A DNA stretch of 64,000 nucleotides from Ottowia thiooxydans DSM 14619 (GTDB lineage: Bacteria; Pseudomonadota; Gammaproteobacteria; Burkholderiales; Burkholderiaceae_C), in contig NZ_AUGX01000014.1 of the NCBI RefSeq assembly GCF_000422885.1, positions 124,001-188,000 on the forward strand. Reading direction: 5' to 3'. The position numbers and the translations under genes are program-made. Shown piece by piece: positions 50,050 through 63,371 of the stretch. The notes beneath the pieces were generated by a model that saw nothing but the letters and a program-made list of their open reading frames with translations, had not been told where the DNA came from and did no database searches. Position 1 is the first letter of the stretch, and the number at the start of each line of letters is the position of its first letter.

Positions 50050-50068
50050 GGGAATGATTCTCATTTAC
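50050..50068 (+). promoter_or_regulatory. Fur box upstream of fecI
   Basis: GGGAATGATTCTCATTTAC matches the 19-bp Fur consensus at 13 positions and has the core AATGAT-N2-TCATT. An overlapping CTCATTT/AAATGAG dyad follows to 50079. It lies 34 bp before the fecI start, so iron-replete repression is expected. Confidence 0.75.
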
Positions 50069-50102
50069 ATTTAAATGAGGTGTACCTTCAGAACGCAACT
50101 TT

Positions 50103-50636
50103 GTGATCGCGACAGATTCCAGTCTAGATTTATCAACCGAACAACAGATCGACGTCCTCTATTGCCAACACCATGGGTGGCTGCATAGCTGGTTGCGCCG
50201 TAAGTTGGGGGATGCTCATCAGGCGGCAGATCTTATGCACGATACCTTTGTGCGTATCCTGGAAGCCTGCCGAACTGAGGAATTGGCCCTGAACTCCGTG
50301 CGGGAGCCACGTGCATATCTCACTACCGTGGCGGGGAGGGTGCTCGCCAATCATTTTCGAAGGGCATCGCTTGAAAAAGCCTGGCTGGCGGCGCTGGCGC
50401 TTTATCCAGAATCATTTGCGATTTCTCCCGAGGAGCGCCTGAGCATCTTGCAAACATTGCACCAGATCGACGCCATGCTCGACGCTTTGCCTTCAAAAGT
50501 GCGCACCGCGTTCTTGCTGGCACAACTCGAAGGGCTGACCTATGCAGAGATCGCCTTACACATGGGTATTGCGGAGCGCACCGTCAAACGGTATATGGCG
50601 CAAGCATTCGAAGAGTGCTTGATGCAAATCGAATGA
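50103..50636 (+). CDS. ECF sigma factor, FecI/PvdS iron-responsive type
   Basis: A 177-residue ECF sigma factor. Region 2 has YCQHHGWLHSWLRRKLGDAH and AADLMHDTFVRILEACR. Region 4 has LPSKVRTAFLLAQLEGLTYA and IALHMGIAERTVKRYMAQAF. It starts at GTG 50103; no ATG is available nearby. It overlaps the fecR-like gene by 4 nt (ATGA). In this family the sigma factor transcribes the adjacent TonB-receptor operon when FecR relays ligand binding, and Fur represses the sigma gene. Confidence 0.92.
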   Translation: MIATDSSLDLSTEQQIDVLYCQHHGWLHSWLRRKLGDAHQAADLMHDTFVRILEACRTEELALNSVREPRAYLTTVAGRVLANHFRRASLEKAWLAALALYPESFAISPEERLSILQTLHQIDAMLDALPSKVRTAFLLAQLEGLTYAEIALHMGIAERTVKRYMAQAFEECLMQIE

Positions 50637-51634
50637 CAGGTTCAGGCGAGGGTAGAGTTGCCGGGGTGCCGCGTGAGGTCTTGCGTGCAGCATCCAGGTG
50701 GATGGCACACATGAACTCGGGAGAAGCTACGGCGGCCGAGCGGCAGGACCTGGAGCGGTGGCGAAGCGCAGATGAGTTGCACGAGTTGGCCTGGCAGCGC
50801 GCTGTGCGTCTGAACGCTCAACTGGGGCGCTTGCCTCCGCTGGTGAGTCTGCAGGTGCTAGGCCGTGCTCGCCGCCAAGCCGGACGCCGCGCAGCGTTGC
50901 AGAGCTTGGCGGTGTTCGCGGTGGCCGCACCGGTGGTCTACACGGTCTGGCGTGGAATTTCCTATGAGCAGGTTACCTGGACCGCCAGTCATAGAACTGC
51001 AACGGGAGAACGCCGTAAAGTGGTACTAGCCGATGGCACAAGGCTTGAGCTCAACACGGCCACAGATATTGACGTCTCCTTTGACTCAGGTAAGAACGGA
51101 CTGCGTCTAGTCAAGCTTCACTCTGGAGAGCTCCAGATAGAGACCGCACAGGACCCCGCCCGCCGGCCGTTTGAAGTGCAAACGCGCCACGGCCGCATTC
51201 GGGCACTGGGGACGCGGTTCCTGGTGCGGCAGACGCCAGCAGACTCTAAGACCCTGGTGGCAGTGCAGCAAAGTGCGGTCGAGGTTCGTCCGACGAATTC
51301 AGGTGACCAGCCCTTCCGTGTTGAGGCTGGCTCGCAGACTCGCTTTGACGCTGCTGGCGCGCATGACATAGCTCCGGAGTATCCCCAGCAGGACACATGG
51401 GTGCGCGGAATGCTCTTTGCCAGCAACCAGCGTTTGGCGGACTTCGCGGCTGAACTTGGGCGGTATCGGAGAGGGATAGTACGTTGTGCGCCAGAGGTTG
51501 CCGATCTTCGAATTAGCGGAGCATTCCGCTTGGACAGCACAGACGAGATTCTTGCCGCACTGCCAGACACCTTACCGGTCCGAATGGCCTATCGCACACG
51601 TTGGTGGGTCGAGATCAGGCCGTTAGTCCCGTGA
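50633..51634 (+). CDS. FecR-family anti-sigma / transmembrane sensor
   Basis: A 333-residue protein. The cytoplasmic DUF4880 N-terminus (AASRWMAHMNSGEATAAERQ, DELHELAWQRAVRLNAQLG) interacts with sigma. One transmembrane helix lies at ~90-108 (ALQSLAVFAVAAPVVYTVWR). The periplasmic FecR domain follows (GERRKVVLADGTRLELNTAT, RPFEVQTRHGRIRALGTRFLV). The C-terminal secretin/TonB short-N-like part ends with RTRWWVEIRPLVP and would contact the receptor STN domain. Start ATG 50633 overlaps the sigma stop. A strong hairpin forms across its stop codon. Confidence 0.92.
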   Translation: MTGSGEGRVAGVPREVLRAASRWMAHMNSGEATAAERQDLERWRSADELHELAWQRAVRLNAQLGRLPPLVSLQVLGRARRQAGRRAALQSLAVFAVAAPVVYTVWRGISYEQVTWTASHRTATGERRKVVLADGTRLELNTATDIDVSFDSGKNGLRLVKLHSGELQIETAQDPARRPFEVQTRHGRIRALGTRFLVRQTPADSKTLVAVQQSAVEVRPTNSGDQPFRVEAGSQTRFDAAGAHDIAPEYPQQDTWVRGMLFASNQRLADFAAELGRYRRGIVRCAPEVADLRISGAFRLDSTDEILAALPDTLPVRMAYRTRWWVEIRPLVP

Positions 51635-51670
51635 AACAGAGAAATCGGCTGTGCGATTTCTCCGTTTCAC
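51631..51670 (+). promoter_or_regulatory. Strong hairpin at the end of fecR
   Basis: 17-nt arms (51631-51647 and 51654-51670) pair at 16 of 17 positions around a 6-nt loop. The first arm begins GTGAAACAGAG and contains the fecR stop codon. No T run follows, so it is more likely an mRNA-processing or stabilising structure than a full terminator. Confidence 0.6.
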
Positions 51671-51697
51671 TGCACTAGCGACCCCTTGAAAGCTATC

Positions 51698-51736
51698 TGA
51701 CACTTTGTGTGTCACCTTTTGACGTTTCGCGTGTCA
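51698..51736. promoter_or_regulatory. Two tandem 17-bp dyads upstream of the TonB receptor gene
   Basis: TGACACTTTGTGTGTCA (51698-51714) and TGACGTTTCGCGTGTCA (51720-51736) match at 13 of 17 positions and are 22 bp apart start to start, about two helical turns. Both are TGAC...GTCA inverted repeats. They end 67 bp before the receptor start, where an activator or repressor would bind. Confidence 0.5.
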
Positions 51737-51803
51737 TACCTGTAGAACGCCAGCAAGCCGCGTCGCGGAGCCAGCTAATCAATCCATCCAAGGAAAGCTC
51801 CGC

Positions 51804-54470
51804 ATGCCTCGACACGACCACATCTCCAAAGTCGCCCCTGCGCGCTCGAAAACTGCCCCGCTCGCCAAAGCTGCGCGCCAAGCCATGTTGATGATGGCGC
51901 TGAGCACCGGTGCAGGCTGGTTGCCAACTGCCGTTGCCCAAGGTCCCGCGCCGGCAAGTGCCTATGCAGTGCCTGCAGGGCCGCTCGATGACGCATTGAC
52001 CAGTTTCGCTGCCAGCGCGGGCGTGACTGTGCAACTGGACGCCAGGTTGGTTTCGGGTCGCCGAACAAGTGGGCTTCAAGGGCGGTATGGCGTGCGTGAA
52101 GGATTCGCCCAGTTGTTGGCCGGCACCGGGCTGGAAGTGCATGAACGCAGCCGCGGAGTCTGGGTATTGCGTCAAGCGTCGTCACCGGCGTCGGCGGCCG
52201 CATCCCCATCGAACTCCGCATCTGTCGCGACGACCGCAACGCCCGCGCAGGGCGAAGTGGCCCTGGCCGAAGTCAAGGTGACGGCAGACGCAGTTCGGCG
52301 CGAAGCGGGAACCCGCACGGTGCTTACTCAAGATGATGTAGAGCGCACAGGGGGTAATAGCATTGCGGACGTGATTCGCTATCAGCCGTTGGTTGAAGCC
52401 CCGGGCACGGTGCAAGGAGCTACGCGCGGCGCCAGTCGTTACGACCGCGGCGGCACCACCGGATACAACATCCGTGGCGTTGAAGGAAACCGAGTGGGAT
52501 TGGACGTGGACGGCATCGAAATGCCCGACGCAGTCAGCCGTGCGCCGATGACCGCACGCTCGGAAGACGGTACCTTCGGTATGGGGCGAGACTTTATCGA
52601 CCCTGACCTGTATTCCTCGGTAGATATTCAGTCAGGGACCACCAATTCTCAGCGTTCTGCGGGAGGCATCGGCGGGGCCGTGAGCTTCCGCAGCAAGTCG
52701 CCAGAAGACTATGTGAGCGCCAGCAATCCGTTCTATGCGGGAGCCAAACTGGGCTATAGCCAAGCCGATCGTGCCTGGTCCAAGGGAGTGACGTTGGCGG
52801 GGCAGACCGGCGATCTTGGGCTGCTGATGGGTTACTCACGCCGTGATGGCCATGAGTCCAAGAACAACAGCGAATCCATGTCCAGATACCCCGAGCGCTG
52901 GAATTCGGACGCGTTGTTGCTCAAAGGGGTGATTCGTGTGAATCCCGAACACAAACTCGAGCTGGCCGCTGACCTTTACCGCAAACAGAACCGTTCCACC
53001 TTCGCAAGCTGGGACGCCGCCGGTACGGCTGTCACCGGAACTTCAAATCAAGACGCCCGTACCAAGCGCGACACGGTGTACGCCGCGCACACCTGGACGC
53101 CTGGAGCAGGTGGTCCCATTGACCAGGTCAACACCCGTCTGTTCCTGCAAAACACTGACATGGACGACGTGACCAACACGGTCGCCACCGCCACAGGCGC
53201 AGCGGTCCGAGAAGCTTCACAGAACACCACGCATCAGATCGGCTTTTCCAGCGTGGCAGACAAACGCATTGCCAACCACGCGATCAAGTTCGGTGTGAAC
53301 TACTCGCGAAGCAAGAACGAGCACCCATTCACATCCAGTGAAGCGTTCGGCGCTGGTCAGCCGTTTCCTGACACGTTGACGGTGCGTTCGGGGGCATTTG
53401 TACAGGACACCATCGACTTCCAGTTCGGCGGCCGCCGGCTCGCAGTCGTGCCGGGTTTGCGTGTGGACCGTATCGAACCGAGTATCCGAAATACGGGTAA
53501 CTTCGGCAATGACCGCATCACGCAAGCTGAGTTGGAAGCGATGTATGGCAACGCACCGACGACGACCATCGTCAGTCCGAGCCTGGCCGTACTTTATGAC
53601 GTGGTGCCCAACATGACCGCCTACGCGCAATGGAAGCGGGGCGGCCGCGCTCCCACCAACAGTGAGATTTTCGGCTATTGGAATAGCGGCGGAGGCACAT
53701 ACGCGCTGCTTGGTGACCGCAATTTGAAGGCAGAGTCCAGCAACGCCTTCGACGTCGGCCTGAAGGGCAATCCGGTGCCCGGGGTGCAATTTGCGGGCTC
53801 GCTCTTCTATACCAAATACAAGGACTTCATATCCTACACACGCTACACGCGGGCGAGCAATCCTGAGAAGTTCATCAACATCCAGAACAGCCTGAACATT
53901 CTCTACCAAGCCGAAAATCGCGATGAGGCGAATATCTACGGCACTGAACTCAGCGTTCGGCTGGACCACGGTACATGGACGCCCGCTCTGCGCGGCCTCT
54001 ACACCACCTGGGCAGTGGGGTACAGCAAAGGCAGCTCCAAGTCAAACTATGCGGGCGACAAGAACGTGGACCTGGACTCCGTGCAACCTGGCAAAGCCAT
54101 CATCGGCGTAGGTTATGAGGCACCGCAAAAGGCCTGGGGTTTGAACCTGATGGGCACATTCGTTCGCGGCAAGCAGGCTACCGCTACGAATCGCCAGTCT
54201 TATAGCAACAACCCCGGTGCCGAACTGACTGACTCGTCAACGGAGCTGTTCCGTGTGCCCGGTTTCGCGCGTTTTGACATTTCCGGCTACTGGCGCATCA
54301 ATAAACATACCCGCCTGAACTTCGGCATCTTTAACTTGACTGACAGGCGGTACTGGGCCTACAGCAGCACACGCAGCCTGCAACCAGCCAACGCCCGGGA
54401 TCGCCAACAGATTGAGCTTTCCACCGCGCCAGGCCGCACAGTGGCTATCAGCCTGAACGTGGACTTCTGA
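51804..54470 (+). CDS. TonB-dependent heme/hemoglobin-type receptor with STN signalling domain
   Basis: An 888-residue outer-membrane receptor. A long signal region precedes the STN domain (~50-120, AVPAGPLDDALTSFAASAGV). An Ala/Ser-rich linker, the plug (VERTGGNSIADVIRYQPLVE; TGYNIRGVEGNRVGLDVDG; IDPDLYSSVDIQSGTTNSQR) and a 22-strand barrel follow, ending in a terminal Phe (VAISLNVDF). The plug and barrel resemble the hemoglobin/transferrin/lactoferrin receptor family. The STN domain shows it signals through FecR as well as transporting. The ligand is inferred, and a ferric siderophore is the alternative. Confidence 0.9.
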   Translation: MPRHDHISKVAPARSKTAPLAKAARQAMLMMALSTGAGWLPTAVAQGPAPASAYAVPAGPLDDALTSFAASAGVTVQLDARLVSGRRTSGLQGRYGVREGFAQLLAGTGLEVHERSRGVWVLRQASSPASAAASPSNSASVATTATPAQGEVALAEVKVTADAVRREAGTRTVLTQDDVERTGGNSIADVIRYQPLVEAPGTVQGATRGASRYDRGGTTGYNIRGVEGNRVGLDVDGIEMPDAVSRAPMTARSEDGTFGMGRDFIDPDLYSSVDIQSGTTNSQRSAGGIGGAVSFRSKSPEDYVSASNPFYAGAKLGYSQADRAWSKGVTLAGQTGDLGLLMGYSRRDGHESKNNSESMSRYPERWNSDALLLKGVIRVNPEHKLELAADLYRKQNRSTFASWDAAGTAVTGTSNQDARTKRDTVYAAHTWTPGAGGPIDQVNTRLFLQNTDMDDVTNTVATATGAAVREASQNTTHQIGFSSVADKRIANHAIKFGVNYSRSKNEHPFTSSEAFGAGQPFPDTLTVRSGAFVQDTIDFQFGGRRLAVVPGLRVDRIEPSIRNTGNFGNDRITQAELEAMYGNAPTTTIVSPSLAVLYDVVPNMTAYAQWKRGGRAPTNSEIFGYWNSGGGTYALLGDRNLKAESSNAFDVGLKGNPVPGVQFAGSLFYTKYKDFISYTRYTRASNPEKFINIQNSLNILYQAENRDEANIYGTELSVRLDHGTWTPALRGLYTTWAVGYSKGSSKSNYAGDKNVDLDSVQPGKAIIGVGYEAPQKAWGLNLMGTFVRGKQATATNRQSYSNNPGAELTDSSTELFRVPGFARFDISGYWRINKHTRLNFGIFNLTDRRYWAYSSTRSLQPANARDRQQIELSTAPGRTVAISLNVDF

Positions 54471-54510
54471 ACGCACTTTCGCATTTCCTCCAAAGTCACC
54501 GAGACCCAAT

Positions 54511-55044
54511 ATGAAACACTCTAAAAAACCGGTTCTTGCCGTACTGGCTGTGGCTGCATTTCTGTCGGCCTGCGCCGGCGGCGTAGCGCCCAACAGCGCC
54601 GCATCCAAGTCCACACCCTCCCAGCCCGCGCGCCCCGCAGGGGGGCATGGCATTGCAGCTTTCCTTGGCAGCTACGATGCCGACCGAGACGGTAAGGTCA
54701 CGCGCGCCGAGTTCGATGCGATCCGCGCACAGCGCTTTCAAGCCGCTGACACCAATGGTGACGGCACGCTCAGCGAAGATGAGTACGTCGCAGAGTTCGA
54801 GTCCCGTTTGAAGCGGCAGTACTTTGATGCTGGACGTCAGCCGGACAAGGCTTACGAGAACAGTATCAAGCAAGCGCACGTGCGCTTTGGCATCGTCAAC
54901 CGGGCACGGGACGGCAAGTTCACGCGTGCGGAAGACAATGCGATTGCTGAAAAGACCTTCGCCAACCTGGATACCAGCGGTGACGGCGTCGTGTCTGCAG
55001 CAGATCCACAGCGCCCACGTGAGCAGCCGAGCGGGAACAGATGA
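54511..55044 (+). CDS. EF-hand lipoprotein
   Basis: A 177-residue lipoprotein with lipobox FLSAC (Cys at residue 21). Three EF-hand-like loops are visible: DADRDGKVTRAE (56-67), DTNGDGTLSEDE (~80-91) and DTSGDGVVSAAD near the C-terminus. All have Asp/Asn at the metal positions and the central Gly. It is predicted to bind Ca2+ in the periplasm. It overlaps the DUF2271 gene by 4 nt and follows the receptor by 40 bp, so it is coupled to the iron operon. Its role there is unknown; a metal-dependent scaffold is conceivable. Confidence 0.88.
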   Translation: MKHSKKPVLAVLAVAAFLSACAGGVAPNSAASKSTPSQPARPAGGHGIAAFLGSYDADRDGKVTRAEFDAIRAQRFQAADTNGDGTLSEDEYVAEFESRLKRQYFDAGRQPDKAYENSIKQAHVRFGIVNRARDGKFTRAEDNAIAEKTFANLDTSGDGVVSAADPQRPREQPSGNR

Positions 55045-55598
55045 GCGCGCCACAACGCGTTGCAGCCAGGCCCGCAAAGTACAAAAATCACTGGTTGGCT
55101 GGCGCTGCCCTGACCTTGCTGGTAGCGCCAGCGGGTGCAGGCACTCTCACGCTGCAGGTCACCCTGCCAGCCATTGATACGGCGTCTTACTACCGGCCCT
55201 ATCTCGCAGCGTGGGTCGAGAAAGCCGAGGAAGACAAGGCTGTGCTTGGCACTCTGGCAGTTTGGTATGACACACGGTTGCGAGACAACGGTGGCAGGGG
55301 CTGGCTGCGCAACCTGCGTACGTGGTGGCGCAGTAGTGGCGAGCAAATGGCGCTCCCTGCCGATGGCGTTAGCGGCGCCACTCGTCCGGCCGGCACGCAC
55401 CTGCTTCAATTCAGCGATGCCAAGGGTCTACTGTCAAAGCTTCCTGCAGGGCAATATCAGCTGGCCATCGAAGTCGCACGCGAAAACGGCGGACGGGAGA
55501 TGCTGCGTCTGCCTTTCACCTGGGGTCGTTCGGCCAGTCAGGCCGACGCGCAGGGACGTACCGAACTCGGAAAAGTGAATGTAGTGGCCGTGCCCTGA
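55041..55598 (+). CDS. DUF2271 periplasmic protein, probable flavinylated FMN carrier
   Basis: A 185-residue protein with a signal peptide (HWLAGAALTLLVAPAGA) and a DUF2271 beta-sandwich-like body (LAAWVEKAEEDKAVLGTLAV, LPAGQYQLAIEVARENGGRE). Residues 108-114 are DGVSGAT, matching the D-x-x-[ST]-G-A-T motif in which ApbE links FMN through a phosphoester to the last Thr (T114). An apbE gene lies in the same operon. I infer a periplasmic FMN protein accepting electrons from the membrane PepSY protein. The family is known; flavinylation of this copy is inferred. Confidence 0.85.
   Translation: MSAPQRVAARPAKYKNHWLAGAALTLLVAPAGAGTLTLQVTLPAIDTASYYRPYLAAWVEKAEEDKAVLGTLAVWYDTRLRDNGGRGWLRNLRTWWRSSGEQMALPADGVSGATRPAGTHLLQFSDAKGLLSKLPAGQYQLAIEVARENGGREMLRLPFTWGRSASQADAQGRTELGKVNVVAVP
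55362..55382 (+). other. Codons for the FMN-attachment motif D-G-V-S-G-A-T
   Basis: These seven codons of the DUF2271 gene encode DGVSGAT, ending in the Thr expected to carry FMN. The motif class is established for NqrB/NqrC, RnfG and other ApbE substrates. Confidence 0.75.
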
Positions 55599-55651
55599 AG
55601 CGTATCTAGAACCTCTGCATTCCAGCCCATTCAAAAATGGAAATATCAAGT

Positions 55652-56800
55652 ATGAAATCGTTTCTTTCTCGCTCATTAGCCCTGCTGACCGTGGCTTGTA
55701 TCAGCGCTTGCGGCACACAGGCGCCTGTCGGCCAATCAGTGTCGGGGCCCGTCGTCTACAAACCCGTACAGAGCACGCAAATTCAACGCGCAGCCGTCGC
55801 ACCAGCGCTGTACGAAGTTGCCTTCTCCGCACGCCAAAATGCTGTGTTTGTAGCTTCTTCGGGAGGCTTCGGTGAGAGTGCCGGGCCCAGCAAAGTGTTG
55901 CGCCTCGATCCCAGGACGCTCGCCGTGCAGGCTGAGATCGAATTGCCGCTGCGTGGATTTGGCGTCGTACTGGATGACGCTTCCAATAGGCTGTACGTCG
56001 GGAACACGACAGAAGGTTCGGTCACCGTGGTGGACACAGCCAGCAACCGGGTGGTGCAGACTGTCCCGTTGATGAAAAAAGTCAAAGGTGCGGATGGCAA
56101 GGAAAAGTATCCGCATCATTTCCGCGAGTTGGTGCTCGATACGGCCAATGCTCGTCTTTTTGCGCCGGGTCTCAGCTCGGATGGCAGTTCGCTGTATGTG
56201 ATGAACACGCGCACGCTCACTCTCGAAAAGGAGCTGCCAGGGCTGGGGGCTGTCGCGACGGGCATCGCTTTGGACGCAGACAACCACCGCTTGTTCGTGT
56301 CCAACATGCGCGGTGGTCTTTACGAAGTCGACACGCGTAGCCTGATTATCAGCAAGAGCTATAACGTGGCCGCAGACCAGATGCTTAATCTGGCCTACGA
56401 CTCCAAAGCCCGGCGACTGTTCGCCACGGACCAGGGCTTGACCAGCATTAGTGAACGCCGTCAGAAGGCTGAGCCCGGTTTCAAGCCCACCCCCGGCAAC
56501 CGCGTCGTGGTATTTGATGCCAACAGTGGAAAAATCACCACCAGTTTGCAGACTGGCGAAGGCCCGATTGCACCGCTGTTGGACTTGCCCCGCCAACGCT
56601 TGTATGTCACCAACCGCGGTGCAGGTAGTCTCAGCGTGTTTGACACGTCCAGCGACAAATTGCTGCAGACGATCGCGCTGCCAACCCATCCGAACAGCAT
56701 GGCGCTGGACAGTCGGAATAACGTACTTTATGTCACGGTTAAAAACGGCCGTAATGATGCACGAGGCAGCAACGAGGCCGTGGTGCGCATCGCTTTCTAA
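55652..56800 (+). CDS. YncE-like seven-bladed beta-propeller lipoprotein
   Basis: A 382-residue protein with lipobox CISAC (Cys about residue 19). It carries repeated ~40-residue blades with the YVTN-type pattern: ASNRLYVGNTTEGSVTVVDT, NRLFVSNMRGGLYEVDTRS, RQRLYVTNRGAGSLSVFDTS and NNVLYVTVKNG. Propellers of this type bind DNA or proteins or act as redox scaffolds. Start: ATG 55652 begins the lipoprotein signal; ATG 55637 is also in frame. Its stop overlaps the PepSY start (TAATG). Context suggests it supports the iron-reduction complex; no catalytic residues can be named. Confidence 0.88.
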   Translation: MKSFLSRSLALLTVACISACGTQAPVGQSVSGPVVYKPVQSTQIQRAAVAPALYEVAFSARQNAVFVASSGGFGESAGPSKVLRLDPRTLAVQAEIELPLRGFGVVLDDASNRLYVGNTTEGSVTVVDTASNRVVQTVPLMKKVKGADGKEKYPHHFRELVLDTANARLFAPGLSSDGSSLYVMNTRTLTLEKELPGLGAVATGIALDADNHRLFVSNMRGGLYEVDTRSLIISKSYNVAADQMLNLAYDSKARRLFATDQGLTSISERRQKAEPGFKPTPGNRVVVFDANSGKITTSLQTGEGPIAPLLDLPRQRLYVTNRGAGSLSVFDTSSDKLLQTIALPTHPNSMALDSRNNVLYVTVKNGRNDARGSNEAVVRIAF

Positions 56801-57426
56801 TGCGGGCAAAAGAGGTTGGCAAGCGAGGCTTCTGGCTTCGGCAACTGCATACTTGGCACTGGATTTCCGCTGCCATCAGCTTGGCCGGAATGCTGATGTT
56901 CGCCGTCACGGGCATCACTCTCAACCACGCAGCCAGCCTGCCATCCCACCCCAGCAAACATGAGCAACGTGCAGCGTTGCCGGCAGACTTGCAGGCGGTG
57001 CTTGAGGCCATTGCAGATAGCGCTACTGATTCAACACCCCCTGAACTCGCGAGTTGGGCTGCCGACACCTTCGCTATCGATATCTCCAGCCTCTCTGCGG
57101 AGGTCAGTCCCGATGAGATTTTCGTGGGGATTCCCATGCCCGGTGGGGAAGGGGCCCTGGTCATTGATCGTGCCGCCGCCAACGCGACCTATACAGTCAC
57201 CAGGCGCGGGTGGGTGGCCTACCTCAATGATTTGCACAAAGGTCGCAACGCTGGCGTCGCCTGGTCGTGGTTCATCGACTGCATGGCGGTCAGTTGCGTG
57301 GTCTTCACGCTGACAGGGTTCGCACTTTTGTGGATGCATGGCCGCACCCGGCCGCTTACCTGGCCATTGACAGGTCTGAGCCTGTTGGCGCCTGTCTTGA
57401 TAGCTTTACTCTTCGTCCATGGCTGA
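56800..57426 (+). CDS. PepSY-domain membrane protein (PepSY_TM, electron-transfer type)
   Basis: A 208-residue protein. TM1 is at ~21-42, preceded by RQLHTWHWISAA and followed by GITLNHA. A ~100-residue periplasmic PepSY region follows (VGIPMPGGEGALVIDRAAAN). Two more helices lie at ~155-180 (CMAVSCVVFTLTGFALLWM) and ~185-205 (LTGLSLLAPVLIALLFV). Conserved His (H17, H20, H43, and in LNDLHKGRN) are candidate heme ligands, as proposed for this reductase family. The C-terminus is short and stops 3 bp before the inverted-repeat element at 57429. It may therefore have been trimmed by that insertion. Confidence 0.85.
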   Translation: MRAKEVGKRGFWLRQLHTWHWISAAISLAGMLMFAVTGITLNHAASLPSHPSKHEQRAALPADLQAVLEAIADSATDSTPPELASWAADTFAIDISSLSAEVSPDEIFVGIPMPGGEGALVIDRAAANATYTVTRRGWVAYLNDLHKGRNAGVAWSWFIDCMAVSCVVFTLTGFALLWMHGRTRPLTWPLTGLSLLAPVLIALLFVHG

Positions 57427-57428
57427 AA

Positions 57429-57594
57429 CTAGTGTCTAGTTGCATAAATCCTGCTGCATTCAACCCGCCCGGCATCCCCGGCTGCGGTGTTGCAACTCCT
57501 CGCCATAGCTACGGCTATGGCTGCGGGTTGCGCCTTGCAGCCGGGGCGCCAGAGGCCTTTCGGTGCAACGCAGACTCATGCAACTAGACACTAG
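57429..57594. mobile_element. 166-bp inverted-repeat element (MITE-like) inserted in the operon
   Basis: Perfect 17-bp terminal inverted repeats CTAGTGTCTAGTTGCAT (57429-57445) and ATGCAACTAGACACTAG (57578-57594). Inside are nested pairs: CCCCGGCTGC/GCAGCCGGGG (57476-57485, 57537-57546), GCAAC/GTTGC (57492-57496, 57527-57531) and CCATAGC/GCTATGG around TACG (57503-57520). The outermost CTAG on each side could be a 4-bp target duplication, leaving 13-bp ends TGTCTAGTTGCAT. No transposase is present. It separates two genes of an otherwise overlapping operon. Confidence 0.75.
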
Positions 57595-58606
57595 CCCCAA
57601 CCGCGTGTTCTTGCCGGTTGACTCTGGTGAGAACAAGCCTGCGGTGCCGCCTGCCGGCTACCCAATGCACCGGTTCGAGGGGACAGCGATGGGAACACAC
57701 TGGTCGGTTCAAGCTTATGCGCCAAAGAATGTGGAACCCCAGCGTTTACGCATGGCCGTCATGCAGGAATTGGCCCAGGCCATCGAACTGTTCAGTACCT
57801 GGCAGGCTGACAGCGAGGTAGCCCGCTTCAATGCGGCTCCTGCAGGCGACTGGCAATTTTCCGCACCCTGTTGGGCTCTGCTGGAAAGTAGCCTGGCCTG
57901 GGCGGATGCCAGCGGTGGCGCGGTCGATCCCACGCTCGGTGCGCTGGTGAATTTGTGGGGTTTTGGTCCGGAGGGGCCGCGTCCGGAGCGGGCACCTCTC
58001 CCGACTCAGCATGAGATTGATAGGGGGTTACGTGCTAGCGGATGGCGAAATGTCCAAATGGATTCGACAAGGCGAACACTGCATAAACCCGCTGGCCTGC
58101 AACTTGATTTCAGCGGTATTGCCAAGGGCTGGGCGGTTGACCAAGTTTCTTCCAGGTTGGTGCGCGAAGGGGCCTGCGTGCACTTGGTCGAAATCGGTGG
58201 GGAGCTCAAGAGCCGCGGGCTAAGACACGATCTGCAACCCTGGTGGGTGCTTTTGCAAAATAGCGGCGCTGGCCCTCGAAGCTTGTTGGCATTGGTGGAT
58301 ATGGCAGTGGCCACCTCGGGCGACACCCATCATCATTTCAACCATCAGGGGCGCCGATATGCGCATACCTTGGACGGCCAAAGCGGTTGGCCCATCGCGC
58401 ATGGCACGGCTTCAGTGACCGTGTTGCACCGCGAGGCCATGCAGGCAGACGTCCACGCAACGATCTTGACTGTCATGGAACCTCAGCGGGCCATGGACTG
58501 GGCTGAACGGTATGGACTCGCCGCGCTGCTGACGGTACGCACTAACGAAGGCGTGGAGGAACATCTCAGTACGGCCATGATGGCTATGTTGGATTCATCA
58601 GAATGA
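57563..58606 (+). CDS. apbE: FAD:protein FMN transferase (ApbE family)
   Basis: A 347-residue ApbE-type enzyme that transfers FMN from FAD to a Thr/Ser of target proteins. Motifs: FEGTAMGTHWSVQAYAP, IELFSTWQADSEVARFN, GAVDPTLGALVNLWGFGPEG, LQLDFSGIAKGWAVDQVSS, YAHTLDGQSGWPI and the metal Asp in AMQADVHATILTVME. No signal peptide or lipobox is visible, although ApbE usually acts outside the cytoplasm. GTG 57563 lies in the repeat element and follows AGAGG; ATG 57578, 57665 and 57689 are alternatives, the last starting at MGTHWS. It overlaps the reductase gene by 4 nt. The likely target is the DUF2271 protein. Confidence 0.92.
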   Translation: MQRRLMQLDTSPNRVFLPVDSGENKPAVPPAGYPMHRFEGTAMGTHWSVQAYAPKNVEPQRLRMAVMQELAQAIELFSTWQADSEVARFNAAPAGDWQFSAPCWALLESSLAWADASGGAVDPTLGALVNLWGFGPEGPRPERAPLPTQHEIDRGLRASGWRNVQMDSTRRTLHKPAGLQLDFSGIAKGWAVDQVSSRLVREGACVHLVEIGGELKSRGLRHDLQPWWVLLQNSGAGPRSLLALVDMAVATSGDTHHHFNHQGRRYAHTLDGQSGWPIAHGTASVTVLHREAMQADVHATILTVMEPQRAMDWAERYGLAALLTVRTNEGVEEHLSTAMMAMLDSSE

Positions 58607-60003
58607 CGGTCGACTCGAGCCGTTGGATATGGGCGGCGTTCGCCTGTGTTGTGTGGCTGTCTTTGTGGATCCGACCGATGCGTAAAAAGCTCGGCACCTG
58701 GCAGCCCGCTCGCGGGATCGCTCGACGTCTCCCTACTAAAGAACACGCTCCATCATTGCTGATTGGCTATGCGAGCCAGAGCGGTTTCGCAGCCCTATTG
58801 GCTGAAGATTTGGCACGCAACCTGGCAGCGGGCGGTCACCCGGCGCACGCTCGATCTTTGCACAGCCTAAGCGCGCTCGACATCAGCAAGGCAGATCGCA
58901 TGCTTTTCATTGTGAGCACCACGGGCGAGGGCGACGCACCTGACAATGCCGCTGCGTTCGTTTCACGCGTGATGAGCGGCACACTCAATCTTCAGCAACT
59001 ACGCTACGGGTTTTTGGCCTTGGGCGACAGCAGCTATGCGAATTTTTGCCGCTTTGGCAGAGAGCTGGACGCCTGGTTGATCTCAGCCGGTGCAATCCCG
59101 GCCTTCAGCCGTATTGAGGTCGACGGCGCCCGCGCAGCCGCTTTGGACATGTGGCGTCAAGCCGTTGAACGTTTTACTGACCATACCTTGGCGGTTGACC
59201 CGTTGCCTTCTCGGCAGGCAGTACTCGCGCAGCGTTGGGTGCTGGTTCGGCGTGAGATCTTGAATAGCGGCAGTCCTGGTGCGCCCATTCACCATATAGT
59301 GCTGCGGCCAAAGGAGCCTGCTGTGCAATGGCAGGCTGGAGACGTGGCGCGGGTATGGATCCCCAATAATTCCGACGATATGCCCATGAGCCGCGATTAC
59401 ACGCTGGCATCATTGCCGCAGAGTGGTTATGCGGAATTAATGGTGCGGGAGGTTTTGAGGCCAGATGGTCAGCGGGGTCTGGGATCTGGTTGGCTGGGCC
59501 ACGGGCTGGCGATAGGCGGTGAGCTCAGAATGGAGATTCGCTACAACCGTGAATTCCACGGTCCGGAGGCCACCATACCGCTGATTCTGATCGGTAACGG
59601 CACGGGTTTGGCAGGTCTGATCGCTCACCTGGAGGCGCGTGCGCTGGCGCAGCAGCTCGGTCAGCCTATAGGGCCTGCCTGGCTCTTGTTTGGTGAACGA
59701 ACTTGCCAATTTGATGCGCTGTGCAGTGAAAGACTTGAAGGCTGGCTTGCCTCCGGCGTGCTCACGCGATTGAATCGTGCTTTCTCCCGGGATGCAGAAG
59801 CGTCTGCACATTACGTACAGGACTTTATCGGCCTTTATCGTGACCTGTTGCAGCATTGGGTGAGCCACGGCGCGGCCGTTTATGTCTGTGGTCAGCGCGA
59901 GGGCATGGCGAGCGGCGTGGATGCAGCGCTGCGACAGGCGTTGGGCGAAACCCTTCTAGAACAACTGACCATTAAGGGCCGGTACAGGCGGGATGTCTAC
60001 TGA
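58603..60003 (+). CDS. Membrane-anchored NADPH:flavodoxin/FNR-type reductase (sulfite-reductase flavoprotein alpha-like)
   Basis: A 466-residue diflavin reductase. A single N-terminal helix (~8-22, WIWAAFACVVWLSLW) is followed by RPMRKK, so the catalytic part is cytoplasmic. The flavodoxin domain (~50-190) has LIGYASQSGFAALLAEDLAR, VSTTGEGDAPDNAA and GDSSYANFCRFG. The FNR domain has FAD-binding RDYTLASLPQSGYAELMV, and NAD(P)-binding GNGTGLAGLIAHLEARALAQ and VYVCGQREGMASGVDAAL. It should pass electrons from NADPH to the PepSY membrane protein. It ends before a terminator shared with the GH81 gene. Confidence 0.9.
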   Translation: MTVDSSRWIWAAFACVVWLSLWIRPMRKKLGTWQPARGIARRLPTKEHAPSLLIGYASQSGFAALLAEDLARNLAAGGHPAHARSLHSLSALDISKADRMLFIVSTTGEGDAPDNAAAFVSRVMSGTLNLQQLRYGFLALGDSSYANFCRFGRELDAWLISAGAIPAFSRIEVDGARAAALDMWRQAVERFTDHTLAVDPLPSRQAVLAQRWVLVRREILNSGSPGAPIHHIVLRPKEPAVQWQAGDVARVWIPNNSDDMPMSRDYTLASLPQSGYAELMVREVLRPDGQRGLGSGWLGHGLAIGGELRMEIRYNREFHGPEATIPLILIGNGTGLAGLIAHLEARALAQQLGQPIGPAWLLFGERTCQFDALCSERLEGWLASGVLTRLNRAFSRDAEASAHYVQDFIGLYRDLLQHWVSHGAAVYVCGQREGMASGVDAALRQALGETLLEQLTIKGRYRRDVY

Positions 60004-60132: not shown

Positions 60133-63108
60133 CTATTGCTTCAGCGTTGACAGCCACCACAACACATTGGTGTTGTTAGACGGGGTTGAGGCATCTTTCA
60201 GGATGTCTGGATCTACACCTGGTGCAGCATAGGTGCCCGAGACCACTTCCTTGGTGTTGGAATCCACGTAGGAGAAGGGCGTGCCTACCGAGTTGGCCAT
60301 GAAGCTGGTGGTTTGCTGAGGCAGCTTGGCCATGTAGCTGGTATAGCGCTGGAAAGCTGCTGCAGGGTCGTTCAATCCGTTGGCCGAGTTGATGATCTGG
60401 CGCCAGCTGTACAGCACCCGCGCCTGGCCAGCGCAGTCGGCAGCCGGCATGAGCGAAGGAGCGCCCGTGGCGGTTGTACCGCACTGAGCCCCTACCGGCG
60501 AGCCCGCAAACAGCTTGTCAAACAGAGCGGTATCGTTGGCCTCCAGTTGGAGCAGTGCCTTGGCATGGTGGCTTGCCCACTCACGAGACAAGATATAGGA
60601 GGACAGCGGGCTGATTGGCAAGATTTGAATGCCTACACGGTATGTTTCGCGTTGACCGAAGAACACCTGCGTTTCAGTAAGGTTGAAGCGTTTGATGCCA
60701 ACCGTGATGAGCTTGTTGGGGTCAGCCGTCACGGATCCGCCGCCTTTCAGGGGAATCTCGATGGGCGTGACATCCTGGAACACACTGTTGGTCGGGGTGA
60801 CCTGGTACATGGATTGTGCGGAGCGAATTTCCCCAGCCGCCATGATCATGCCCATAGCCTGCATTTCAGGGTTGCCGGTGGCAGCTCCCCACAGCACCAG
60901 GCCGTAGTCGGCGTGAATAGCTTCGCTGGATGATTCAGTGTTTCCACCGTTGGCGTCCGGGCCGGCATCAGCCACGTTCTGCATGCGGAACCAGTCGTAG
61001 GTGCGGGTAATCGGAAAATAGGTGTCTTCGCTGCTGTAGTTGGCAATGTCCCGCGCCAGGGTGTTAACCGCTTCCTTGTACTTGTCACGCCAGGGAGTGT
61101 CGTAGCGTCCCAGCACGGCAGAGGCGTACAGGAAGTAGCCGTAGTGGAACATGTGGTCCAGGTACGTGGCGTTGTAGAAATCCTGTTCGTAGTCGTTCTG
61201 CAGGAAGGGTCGATTGGTGACCGTGCCGCCGTTGGTGACGTCGTAGCGGAAGTAATCCTGCATTTTCTTGGTGAGCTTTGCGCTCCACTCTGGATCGTCA
61301 TCGTCCTTCGCGTCGAACCAGGGGTTGAGGGTCGACTTGAGGAAGTCGAGCATCTCATTGCGGATATCGCGCCCTTCGTCTCCTAGCTGGGCCGCGATGA
61401 GCACGAGGCGCGCAATGTTACCCACGTATTTTCCGCAGAGGTATGACTCATAGTTGCAGTGCGCGATATAGCCCTTGACGCTGGCAGCATCGGCGCGGAG
61501 CGAAGCCAGCACCGGAGCGCGGTCAGCGGGTTTGATGGTCCCCGCGCCTTGCCAGAGTTGCTCCGCCTGGGAGGAATGCTGCAGAACCTCTGGAATCTTC
61601 AGGGTCTGTGTCCAGGAGTTTCCGATGACGCCCGTCATGGTGCCGAAGTTGGAGCGGTACTTCAGTGCCACAGTGGGGGCGTTTGCCATGGATTTGAGGT
61701 GGAGTTGATCAAACGCCATCATGAGCAGGCGATTGCCTGAGGCGGTTGAGCCGTCCAGGGTTTCTGTACTCCAGCCATAGCGCACGGTGGAGTCGTTGCC
61801 GCCGGCGTACTGCAGGTTGATAGAGGAGGTGACGGGGTACTCAACCGAATGCTTGTCGAGCAGGGCTTCCTCTGCCGCGTAGCTCACCACGGTGGGGGCA
61901 GGCGCAGATGCAATGGGCTCTTCGTTCACAAACGCTGTGCGCACTGTGCCGTTAAAGGGCTGGCTGAACACGTAGGTGCGCGAAGGAATATCCCAGGTCA
62001 AGGTGACCGGCGATGAGGTGTACACCACCATCACGCGTTGCATGAAAGCCAAATTCGGGTCGCTGCTGACGGAATTGTCAGAGGTGCGATAAACGAAGCG
62101 GAATTTCTTACCGGTGAGGTCCGGTGTGGTGGGGGCGCCGCCATTTTCGGCAAATGGCTTGACCTCTCCGTTATCTGCAGACACGGCATGGATTTCTGGG
62201 ATGGCTTCCCATTTGTTGGGGTCGCCTTTTCCTGGGTCGATGGGAAGGCGGGTGACAGGGTCCTTGGCCTCTTGTGCTCTAAGCCCTTGGCCCAGGCCGA
62301 TCTGCGGGCGCAAATTGAGGTACTTTGCCGTGATGTAAGGCGAGCCGGCAGCCATGATGATCTGCATACTGGGCAGGCCCGCACCGTTAGCTGTTTTGCC
62401 ATACCAGGAGGTTGCTACGGTCAGCTCATCCTTGTGGTCAATGCGGCGGGTCAGCCGTCCGCCACTGGCGGGCAGATAGGTCAGTTGCAGATCCGGATTT
62501 GGCGATGGCACCATGATGTACGGCGCTGCATCAACGTAATACGGATTGGACATGTCCAGCAGCGCACCCGGTTTGGGGATGTAGCGCTTACGCGGAAAAG
62601 CCACGTTGACCATGCCCATTCTGTCATCGAGCCATGCCTGGTTCGGAAAGGCGAAAACGGACTGCTCACGCGCATCGCCCTGGATCCCCAGGGGCACGTC
62701 TAGATTGCGAGGGCTTTGGTAGAAGAACGACTTGTACCATTTGCCCGTGGGCAGCGGGCGGCCGGACATGCCCTCCACCAGGGTGAAGTTCTTATTGGCT
62801 GGCTGAAAGGGGTTGGTAACTGAGCCACCGCCTAGCACCGTAGCGGGATCCACGGTGGAAATGGCAGGGAGGTCAGAGGCTTTAGCCGTCAATAAGCTGG
62901 AAGCTTTTGCCTTCGATTGGCTGGGGACCAGCGTGGCAGGAATACTGATGTCCGCCAGCACGGGGGCGACCCGTGCGGGGGGATGGTCGCTGTAGGCCGA
63001 GCTGCTGGAGCTATCGCTTCCTCCGCAGGCTACCAGACCGGCGGCGCCGAACAGGCCCATGGTTAGCAGCCCGAGGCGCTGCTTGTCTGACCATTTCAAA
63101 CTCGTCAT
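60133..63108 (-). CDS. GH81 endo-beta-1,3-glucanase lipoprotein
   Basis: A 991-residue secreted enzyme. The signal and lipobox are GLFGAAGLVAC, followed by a Ser-rich tether. The GH81 N-terminal beta-sandwich includes NPFQPANKNFTLVEGMSGRP and KSFFYQSPRNLDVPLGIQGD. The catalytic helical region has PWFDAKDDDDPEWSAK, DHMFHYGYFLYASAVLGRYD and the acidic motif GGNTESSSEAIHADYGLVLW with the catalytic Glu. It hydrolyses internal beta-1,3-glucan (laminarin, curdlan, fungal cell wall). ATG 63108 has GAGGAA upstream; the frame extends to 63171. GH81 is mainly fungal or Gram-positive, so its presence here is notable. Confidence 0.88.
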   Translation of the reverse strand: MTSLKWSDKQRLGLLTMGLFGAAGLVACGGSDSSSSSAYSDHPPARVAPVLADISIPATLVPSQSKAKASSLLTAKASDLPAISTVDPATVLGGGSVTNPFQPANKNFTLVEGMSGRPLPTGKWYKSFFYQSPRNLDVPLGIQGDAREQSVFAFPNQAWLDDRMGMVNVAFPRKRYIPKPGALLDMSNPYYVDAAPYIMVPSPNPDLQLTYLPASGGRLTRRIDHKDELTVATSWYGKTANGAGLPSMQIIMAAGSPYITAKYLNLRPQIGLGQGLRAQEAKDPVTRLPIDPGKGDPNKWEAIPEIHAVSADNGEVKPFAENGGAPTTPDLTGKKFRFVYRTSDNSVSSDPNLAFMQRVMVVYTSSPVTLTWDIPSRTYVFSQPFNGTVRTAFVNEEPIASAPAPTVVSYAAEEALLDKHSVEYPVTSSINLQYAGGNDSTVRYGWSTETLDGSTASGNRLLMMAFDQLHLKSMANAPTVALKYRSNFGTMTGVIGNSWTQTLKIPEVLQHSSQAEQLWQGAGTIKPADRAPVLASLRADAASVKGYIAHCNYESYLCGKYVGNIARLVLIAAQLGDEGRDIRNEMLDFLKSTLNPWFDAKDDDDPEWSAKLTKKMQDYFRYDVTNGGTVTNRPFLQNDYEQDFYNATYLDHMFHYGYFLYASAVLGRYDTPWRDKYKEAVNTLARDIANYSSEDTYFPITRTYDWFRMQNVADAGPDANGGNTESSSEAIHADYGLVLWGAATGNPEMQAMGMIMAAGEIRSAQSMYQVTPTNSVFQDVTPIEIPLKGGGSVTADPNKLITVGIKRFNLTETQVFFGQRETYRVGIQILPISPLSSYILSREWASHHAKALLQLEANDTALFDKLFAGSPVGAQCGTTATGAPSLMPAADCAGQARVLYSWRQIINSANGLNDPAAAFQRYTSYMAKLPQQTTSFMANSVGTPFSYVDSNTKEVVSGTYAAPGVDPDILKDASTPSNNTNVLWWLSTLKQ

Positions 63109-63371
63109 AGTGATTTCCTCATCCGGAGAACTAAATGATACGTGCTCACCCGCACGATCTGCACAGAGCATCGTTAGATCATGAGTACGTTCTAAGCGTG
63201 AAGTTGAATATACGCAGTGCTCGCCGATGGCGAAAGTGCCATGAACAGAGGAAGCGTCCCAGGTTAAGGGAATGCGTTCCGCGAAGAGCGTGAACCCATT
63301 TAGGTCTCGGCAAAATGTCTAGCCCTGGGGTGCCCTAAGAGACTTTGAACAGGCTCTAAGGAGTCAGGGAG

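Follow-up and report, generated by a model that had tools for sequence, protein, structure and literature searches.

Gene clusters that combine a PepSY protein, a DUF2271 protein and the flavin transferase ApbE were surveyed by Meheust et al. in 2021 (PMC8238504), who counted 3220 PepSY clusters, 2833 of them with DUF2271 and 231 with a TonB receptor. In that study, a DUF2271 protein was flavinylated when co-expressed with ApbE in E. coli, a role in iron was proposed for the PepSY clusters, and Fur repression of such clusters was noted in two species (this and all other sources are cited here for their available text). Genes of this kind also affect the fitness of Caulobacter in ethylenediaminetetraacetic acid (EDTA; PMC11870441). 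A TonB receptor and a PepSY_TM reductase work in one system in FoxA-FoxB (PMC11334425, PMC13038864) and in HiuABC, which is Fur-regulated (PMC12424826), while FecIRA and HemI-HemR-HemA unite an extracytoplasmic function (ECF) sigma factor, FecR, a TonB receptor and Fur (PMC12772443). Here we describe an operon in a 64,000-nucleotide stretch of the Ottowia thiooxydans DSM 14619 genome, referred to below as the window, in which the flavin module stands behind a FecI-FecR pair and a TonB receptor with an STN signalling domain. Within the literature searched, this signalling-coupled version of a known electron module is new.

The operon comprises nine genes on one strand, from FecI to a reductase, all with Pfam or NCBIfam matches. 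Its features, in window coordinates, are as follows.

50050..50068, no strand assigned: Fur box upstream of fecI, matching 13/19 (+) or 14/19 (-) positions of the Fur consensus.
50103..50636, + strand: FecI-type ECF sigma factor (Sigma70 r2/r4).
50615..51634, + strand: FecR anti-sigma regulator (FecR and DUF4880); starting instead at ATG 50633 would make it overlap fecI by 4 nt.
51715..51737, + strand: putative FecI-type promoter, CCTTTT-N9-CGTGTCAT, ahead of the receptor gene, conserved in relatives; its assignment to FecI is tentative.
51804..54470, + strand: TonB-dependent receptor of the hemoglobin/transferrin/lactoferrin subfamily, with N-terminal STN signalling domain, Plug and barrel.
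54511..55044, + strand: EF-hand lipoprotein, partner of the receptor, with EF-hands and lipobox Cys21.
55041..55598, + strand: DUF2271 carrier of flavin mononucleotide (FMN; DUF2271 6e-40), with a Sec-type signal peptide and the predicted flavinylation site DGVSGAT.
55637..56800, + strand: YncE-like beta-propeller lipoprotein (Lactonase/YncE-type propeller; lipobox judged by eye).
56800..57426, + strand: PepSY_TM_like_2 inner-membrane cytochrome-like protein (4e-69), with conserved H20, H43, H146 and H207.
57429..57594, no strand assigned: 166-bp hairpin element, resembling a miniature inverted-repeat transposable element, at the 5' end of apbE; an inverted repeat with CTAG at each end, absent from L071.
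57563..58606, + strand: signal-less ApbE flavin transferase (ApbE 3e-72); starts GTG 57563 and ATG 57578 lie within the element, others just downstream.
58603..60003, + strand: membrane-anchored flavodoxin/NAD-binding reductase, the presumed electron donor (Flavodoxin_1 and NAD_binding_1; N-terminal hydrophobic stretch by eye).

These genes, their domains and their order agree with the first-pass annotation of this DNA, made from the sequence alone, and the arrangement is unlikely to be accidental, as the full gene order recurs in three relatives (L071, L073 and L074) with 61-96% identity per protein. That annotation overstated the junctions as mostly 4-nt overlaps. Such overlaps occur at 3/8 junctions (fecI-fecR, if ATG 50633 is used, EF-hand-DUF2271 and apbE-reductase); the YncE-PepSY junction has a 1-nt overlap, and the other gaps are 169 bp (fecR to the receptor gene), 40 bp and 38 bp. 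The host genome, of 7.05 Mb, holds one DUF2271, one ApbE, FeoB, and PepSY_TM_like_2 proteins of which one is over the cut-off and one below it. Next to the operon lies a gene for a glycosyl hydrolase family 81 protein (60133-63171, - strand).

The genes for a complete chain from NAD(P)H to a periplasmic flavin appear to be present, as the first-pass annotation had claimed: an NAD(P)H reductase, a PepSY protein with four histidines and a predicted FMN-carrying DUF2271. The PepSY protein matches PF16357 (4.2e-69) and PF03929 (2.9e-9), and with the PF10029 and PF02424 matches of its cluster it belongs with the PepSY-like flavinylation systems. Its His20 and His146 are conserved in 64/64 sequences, His43 in 56/64 and His207 in all 56 aligned at that position, a set of four that, judged from sequence, corresponds to a FoxB-like bis-heme PepSY_TM protein; FoxB itself differs in having two large periplasmic PepSY domains (PMC11334425, PMC13038864). 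PepSY, DUF2271, ApbE and an NAD-binding reductase are shared with the clusters of Meheust et al., although these carry DUF4198 where the window has EF-hand and YncE-like lipoproteins. PepSY-DUF2271-ApbE clusters with links to iron and to TonB receptors have thus been published (PMC8238504), and therefore the electron chain is not new. Neither "EF-hand" nor "sigma factor" occurs in the main text of that paper. HiuABC shares with the window a TonB receptor, a PepSY_TM reductase and the Fur control proposed here, but no flavinylated carrier or ApbE is mentioned in the available text (PMC12424826). For FecIRA and HemI-HemR-HemA, no flavin electron chain is described, and PepSY is unmentioned, in the available text of the corresponding source (PMC12772443).

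The signalling genes fecI, fecR and the STN receptor gene lie side by side, as in the FecIRA gene set. The Fur box claimed by the first-pass annotation is present, and at the matching place in the nearest relative, L071, a similar box matches 15/19 positions. The element ahead of the receptor gene is identical in L071 and is kept in L073 and L074 with a spacer of 9-10, and we infer that it is the promoter read by FecI. At the end of fecR, a hairpin with 30-nt arms (51618-51683) looks like a terminator or a small insert; the shorter spacer of L071 has no hairpin. Among the receptors of the clade, the STN domain (Pfam) was found in 4/4 of those accompanied by FecIR (the window, L071, whose record is apparently L094, L073 and L074) and in 0/8 of those without FecIR (L072, L075, L076, L077, L096, L097, L098 and L100). 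In a receptor tree, from which L095 and L099 were excluded and in which the outgroup branches are long, the four STN/FecIR receptors form one group (support 100/99), and one change suffices to explain it. Therefore, the sensor domain and the sigma/anti-sigma pair came together, a joint capture that is new. Surface-signalling control, as claimed at first pass, is consistent with the genes, the Fur box and the co-presence of FecIR and STN, and the signalling itself is predicted from these.

PF10029 was searched in 199 genomes of relatives (31 with matches, its own included) and in 398 genomes across the phylum (70 with matches, 65 over the cut-off), and the window's DUF2271 was used as a query in 399 family genomes (matches in 55). 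Twenty loci were fetched from the relatives and family searches, 60 from the phylum search, and at least 8 by name; places over the cut-off outside the 60 phylum loci are the window, G754, G860, G669, G805, G720, the second of G622, and G174, which is in the set of 20. L094, a metagenome-assembled genome of a Comamonadaceae bacterium, is the closest named record among the matches listed. Three layouts were distinguished. Type I is PepSY-DUF2271-[DUF4198]-ApbE-reductase, with DUF4198 checked in L083 only. Type II, that of the window, is receptor-EF-hand-DUF2271 with or without YncE-PepSY-ApbE-reductase. In type III, a single protein unites PepSY_TM with the flavodoxin and NAD-binding domains (L088-L090) and is followed by ApbE; in 7/10 type III loci, which entered through the Pfam model, DUF2271 was not found by our profile. 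Beyond the 60 phylum loci, a FecI-type match lies in the type III locus L089, on the opposite strand. In 21/55 of the phylum-wide loci with a profile-found DUF2271 (60 fetched), a same-strand TonB receptor gene lies no more than 500 bp from a gene of the cluster.

Within type II, the order of the module is kept in L071-L075, of which L072 and L075 lack FecIR and L072 also lacks YncE. The receptor and EF-hand genes are found with DUF2271 only in L097, L076 and L077, with DUF2271-PepSY-ApbE-reductase in L072, with a YncE-like gene in addition in L075, and with the full flavin set, the YncE-like gene and FecIR in the window, L071, L073 and L074. The EF-hand lipoprotein, whose lipobox Cys21 is conserved in 8/8 aligned sequences, adjoins the receptor both with and without flavin genes, and this partnership is new relative to the published flavin clusters. 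The YncE-like protein scores 235.9 bits against the YncE equivalog model, under the cut-off of 400. In G450 and G211, which have the short type II locus, the sole ApbE found adjoins a second DUF2271 gene of the same genome, as though one loading enzyme, and possibly one wire, served both loci.

We consider that the operon probably, though far from certainly, encodes substrate-induced uptake of a metal, most likely iron, with its own transmembrane flavin wire. Iron shortage would cause Fur to release fecIR, and a ligand bound to the receptor would signal through STN to FecR and FecI and switch on the receptor operon. A ferric complex would reach the periplasm through the receptor; the cytosolic reductase would draw electrons from NAD(P)H and pass them to the His-ligated hemes of the PepSY_TM protein and so across the membrane, and FMN on DUF2271 would deliver them to the ferric complex. 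The resulting Fe(II) would then enter, probably via FeoB. The DUF2271 precursor would receive its FMN from ApbE in the cytosol, ahead of Sec export. This reading is favoured by the domains, the kept gene order, the co-presence of STN and FecIR, the TonB receptors near other clusters, the conserved acceptor and histidine residues, the fusion of PepSY_TM with the reductase domains in type III, FeoB in the same genome, and the published flavinylation, Fur repression and Caulobacter fitness effects.

Several observations weigh against this reading. The best Fur-box match before fecI is only 11/19 in L073 and L074. The co-occurrence of FecIR/STN with DUF2271-PepSY-ApbE-reductase, borne out in L071, L073 and L074, does not extend to the phylum: FecI or FecR was found in 0/60 of the phylum-wide loci fetched, which makes signalling an addition made in one clade. 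The receptor-EF-hand pair also occurs without nearby flavin genes in L095, L096, L098 and L100, indicating that reduction by the flavin module is not obligatory for the receptor's ligand. In L095 (7503-9775, Acidovorax sp. Leaf160) the receptor gene is split between two frames, by a frameshift or an assembly error.

A further point concerns the element between the PepSY gene and apbE, which the earlier gene list, correct as to the presence of apbE, did not mention. It is a near-perfect hairpin (-96.8 kcal/mol with RNA parameters) with 22 matches in its own genome, including itself, a near-full copy of 82% (C2:221607-221776) and 20 partial ones. In L071, which lacks the element, apbE overlaps the PepSY stop codon, and the window's element sits inside the corresponding 5' end. 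The start codon corresponding to that of L071 runs into a stop within the element, so that apbE must start at a codon supplied by the right end of the element or at one shortly after it. The ApbE enzyme domain is intact, the predicted translational coupling of apbE to the PepSY gene is lost in the window, and the element may lower apbE expression in this strain.

Proteins exported by Sec normally acquire their cofactors once outside the cytosol. The first-pass annotation had pointed to ApbE flavinylation at an SGAT-type site, and the site held up: the window's DUF2271 has DGVSGAT, of the [S/T]GA[S/T] type, and the aligned acceptor column holds Thr or Ser in 75/75 sequences, while the motif's Asp is present in 71/75. 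It had overlooked a problem of compartment, in that DUF2271 is exported but the window's ApbE shows no recognisable signal peptide under an ad hoc hydropathy rule (a mean of 1.6 or more over 12 residues and no charge, from any ATG, GTG or TTG start; not SignalP). By this rule, 52/60 cluster ApbEs, the window included (45 of type I/II, 10 of type III, 5 fusions), are signal-less. The remaining 8 are the five ApbE-DUF2271 fusions (L101, L177, L178, L180 and L181), with one signal peptide each, the lipoprotein ApbE of L146, and those of L131 and L176, which pass marginally and by eye are unlike signal peptides. A signal peptide was found in 72/75 DUF2271 proteins, and the three missed (L076, L086 and L151) are signal-like by eye. 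Control ApbEs without a DUF2271 match in their 1.5-kb flanks had a signal in 26/29 cases; they come from the 30 loci that scored highest in a single class search (74/114 genomes matched), which is not a random sample. In a quick tree of 88 ApbEs, the 45 of types I and II group together with support 99 (42 without a signal, 2 marginal, 1 with a signal), and the 10 of type III form a second signal-less group.

The cluster ApbE is also commonly the only one found. A single ApbE match was found in 25/30 DUF2271-cluster genomes chosen from those at hand (26/30 if the two same-frame pieces in G106 are one gene); G087, G041, G295 and G812 have more, and G004 is only 78% complete. The 29 further ApbE loci from this check included 28 signal-less ones, the other, L222, being the marginal L131 again. 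The other possible substrates in the cluster were sought with a strict acceptor motif, which was absent from PepSY (0/64), reductase (0/61), ApbE (0/60), EF-hand (0/18) and YncE (0/5) proteins. It matched 6/69 TonB receptors (4 in the plug region, 2 elsewhere), matches that look coincidental and were not taken as a second substrate. This silence is weak evidence because the pattern finds only 52/75 DUF2271 proteins; DUF2271 is nonetheless the sole cluster protein with a consistent acceptor motif.

A signal-less sole ApbE together with an exported DUF2271 suggests that flavin is attached in the cytosol, ahead of Sec export, and on the simplest reading a dedicated ApbE would load the DUF2271 precursor inside the cell. 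Bulky groups can reportedly pass SecYEG, as Bonardi et al. are said to have found in 2011. We propose, as a tentative and new claim for proteobacterial DUF2271/PepSY systems, that cytosolic ApbE flavinylates the unfolded precursor and that the FMN-bearing chain passes through Sec without the twin-arginine (Tat) pathway; three solutions would then coexist, in which ApbE is signal-less and encoded in the cluster, is a shared lipoprotein of the periplasm, or is exported as a fusion with DUF2271.

It is also possible, though somewhat doubtful, that ApbE, despite its lack of a signal peptide, leaves the cytosol by some unrecognised route or acts on a cytosolic protein, and that DUF2271 receives its flavin in the periplasm or never receives one. 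Cytosolic loading has to contend with the DUF2271-adjacent lipoprotein ApbE of L146, and with 18 genomes in which no apbE was seen within 6 kb at the DUF2271 locus, since the best ApbE elsewhere bears a signal in 18/18, making periplasmic loading possible (10 further ApbEs in these genomes divide into 5 with and 5 without a signal). The DUF2271-linked apbE of PMC8238504 was moreover termed "signal peptide-truncated". Intracellular ApbEs serve fumarate reductases, and the cytosolic ApbE of Klebsiella, which acts on a soluble fumarate reductase, is likewise signal-less (PMC12052999); its substrate is cytosolic, however, whereas the only good candidate in the window's cluster is exported. Against these points stand the genomes with no ApbE but that of the cluster and the near absence of acceptor motifs outside DUF2271, which favour cytosolic loading. 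Signal-less ApbEs also share an N-terminal box, [RNQDH][RQDHE]?V[LFVIA][IVLA]P (NRVFLP in the window, residues 13-18 from GTG 57563), found in 23/45 of types I/II, 0/10 of type III, 0/5 fusions and 0/57 other ApbEs. When the 45 were shuffled 300 times, it occurred 0.45 times on average and 3 at most, an excess that is descriptive because the pattern was chosen after viewing the sequences and the rows are related. The box could be a docking motif.

As to the ligand, the receptor resembles heme receptors, yet a ferric complex is the most likely candidate. It is unlikely, in our view, that the receptor imports heme or strips heme proteins while the chain reduces heme iron or aids its release, although the receptor exceeds the TIGR01786 cut-off (334.6 bits vs 323.75) and its closest solved structure by sequence is the heme receptor PhuR (8the, 6.8e-60). 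It falls under the TIGR01785 cut-off (262.6 vs 316.85), and FoxA chains match its STN/plug region. The heme ligands of PhuR, which we take to be one His and one Tyr, align with a Met/Gly position and F623 in the window's receptor, and no His is conserved across the FRAP/NPNL stretch in an alignment of six receptors. The operon itself contains no heme ATP-binding cassette transporter or heme-degradation genes. EF-hand genes lie near 4/5 ApbE-DUF2271 fusions (L101, L177, L180 and L181, not L178), on the opposite strand in L101 and L181. In L177 and L180 they follow a DUF4198 gene, and the neighbouring receptors exceed heme-receptor family cut-offs, which favours heme; these EF-hand proteins are longer than the window's and are perhaps unrelated to it outside the EF-hands.

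Very unlikely is a copper system like CrtA-CrpH of Bordetella, in which receptor and PepSY_TM would handle copper. That a TonB receptor-PepSY_TM pairing serves copper there (PMC12914433, PMC13038864) does count against iron; however, a Fur box lies ahead of fecI here, and the crtA promoter reportedly has none (PMC12914433). With the copper-receptor model TIGR01778, which may not cover CrtA, the receptor reaches 53.6 bits (cut-off 472). ApbE and DUF2271 are unmentioned in the available text of the CrpH paper, as is DUF2271 in that of the CrtA paper. The EF-hand protein has a weak lanmodulin match (34 bits, cut-off 135), and its loops are of the ordinary calcium type, without the Pro that lanmodulin loops presumably carry. 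Lanthanide or calcium uptake with this receptor-tied lipoprotein as binder is accordingly most improbable, as LanPepSY is a small periplasmic protein and not a PepSY_TM (PMC12482762) and neither metal has an evident part to play in a redox chain.

The operon illustrates how a sigma/anti-sigma pair and a receptor's signalling domain arrive together, and it adds the EF-hand protein as a recurring partner of such receptor systems. If cytosolic loading is true, covalently bound FMN would cross the Sec channel, which would change our understanding of the maturation of these common iron-linked systems. Filters that retain only signal-bearing ApbEs or FMN-binding proteins, such as the first filter of PMC8238504, would then overlook ApbEs of this kind.

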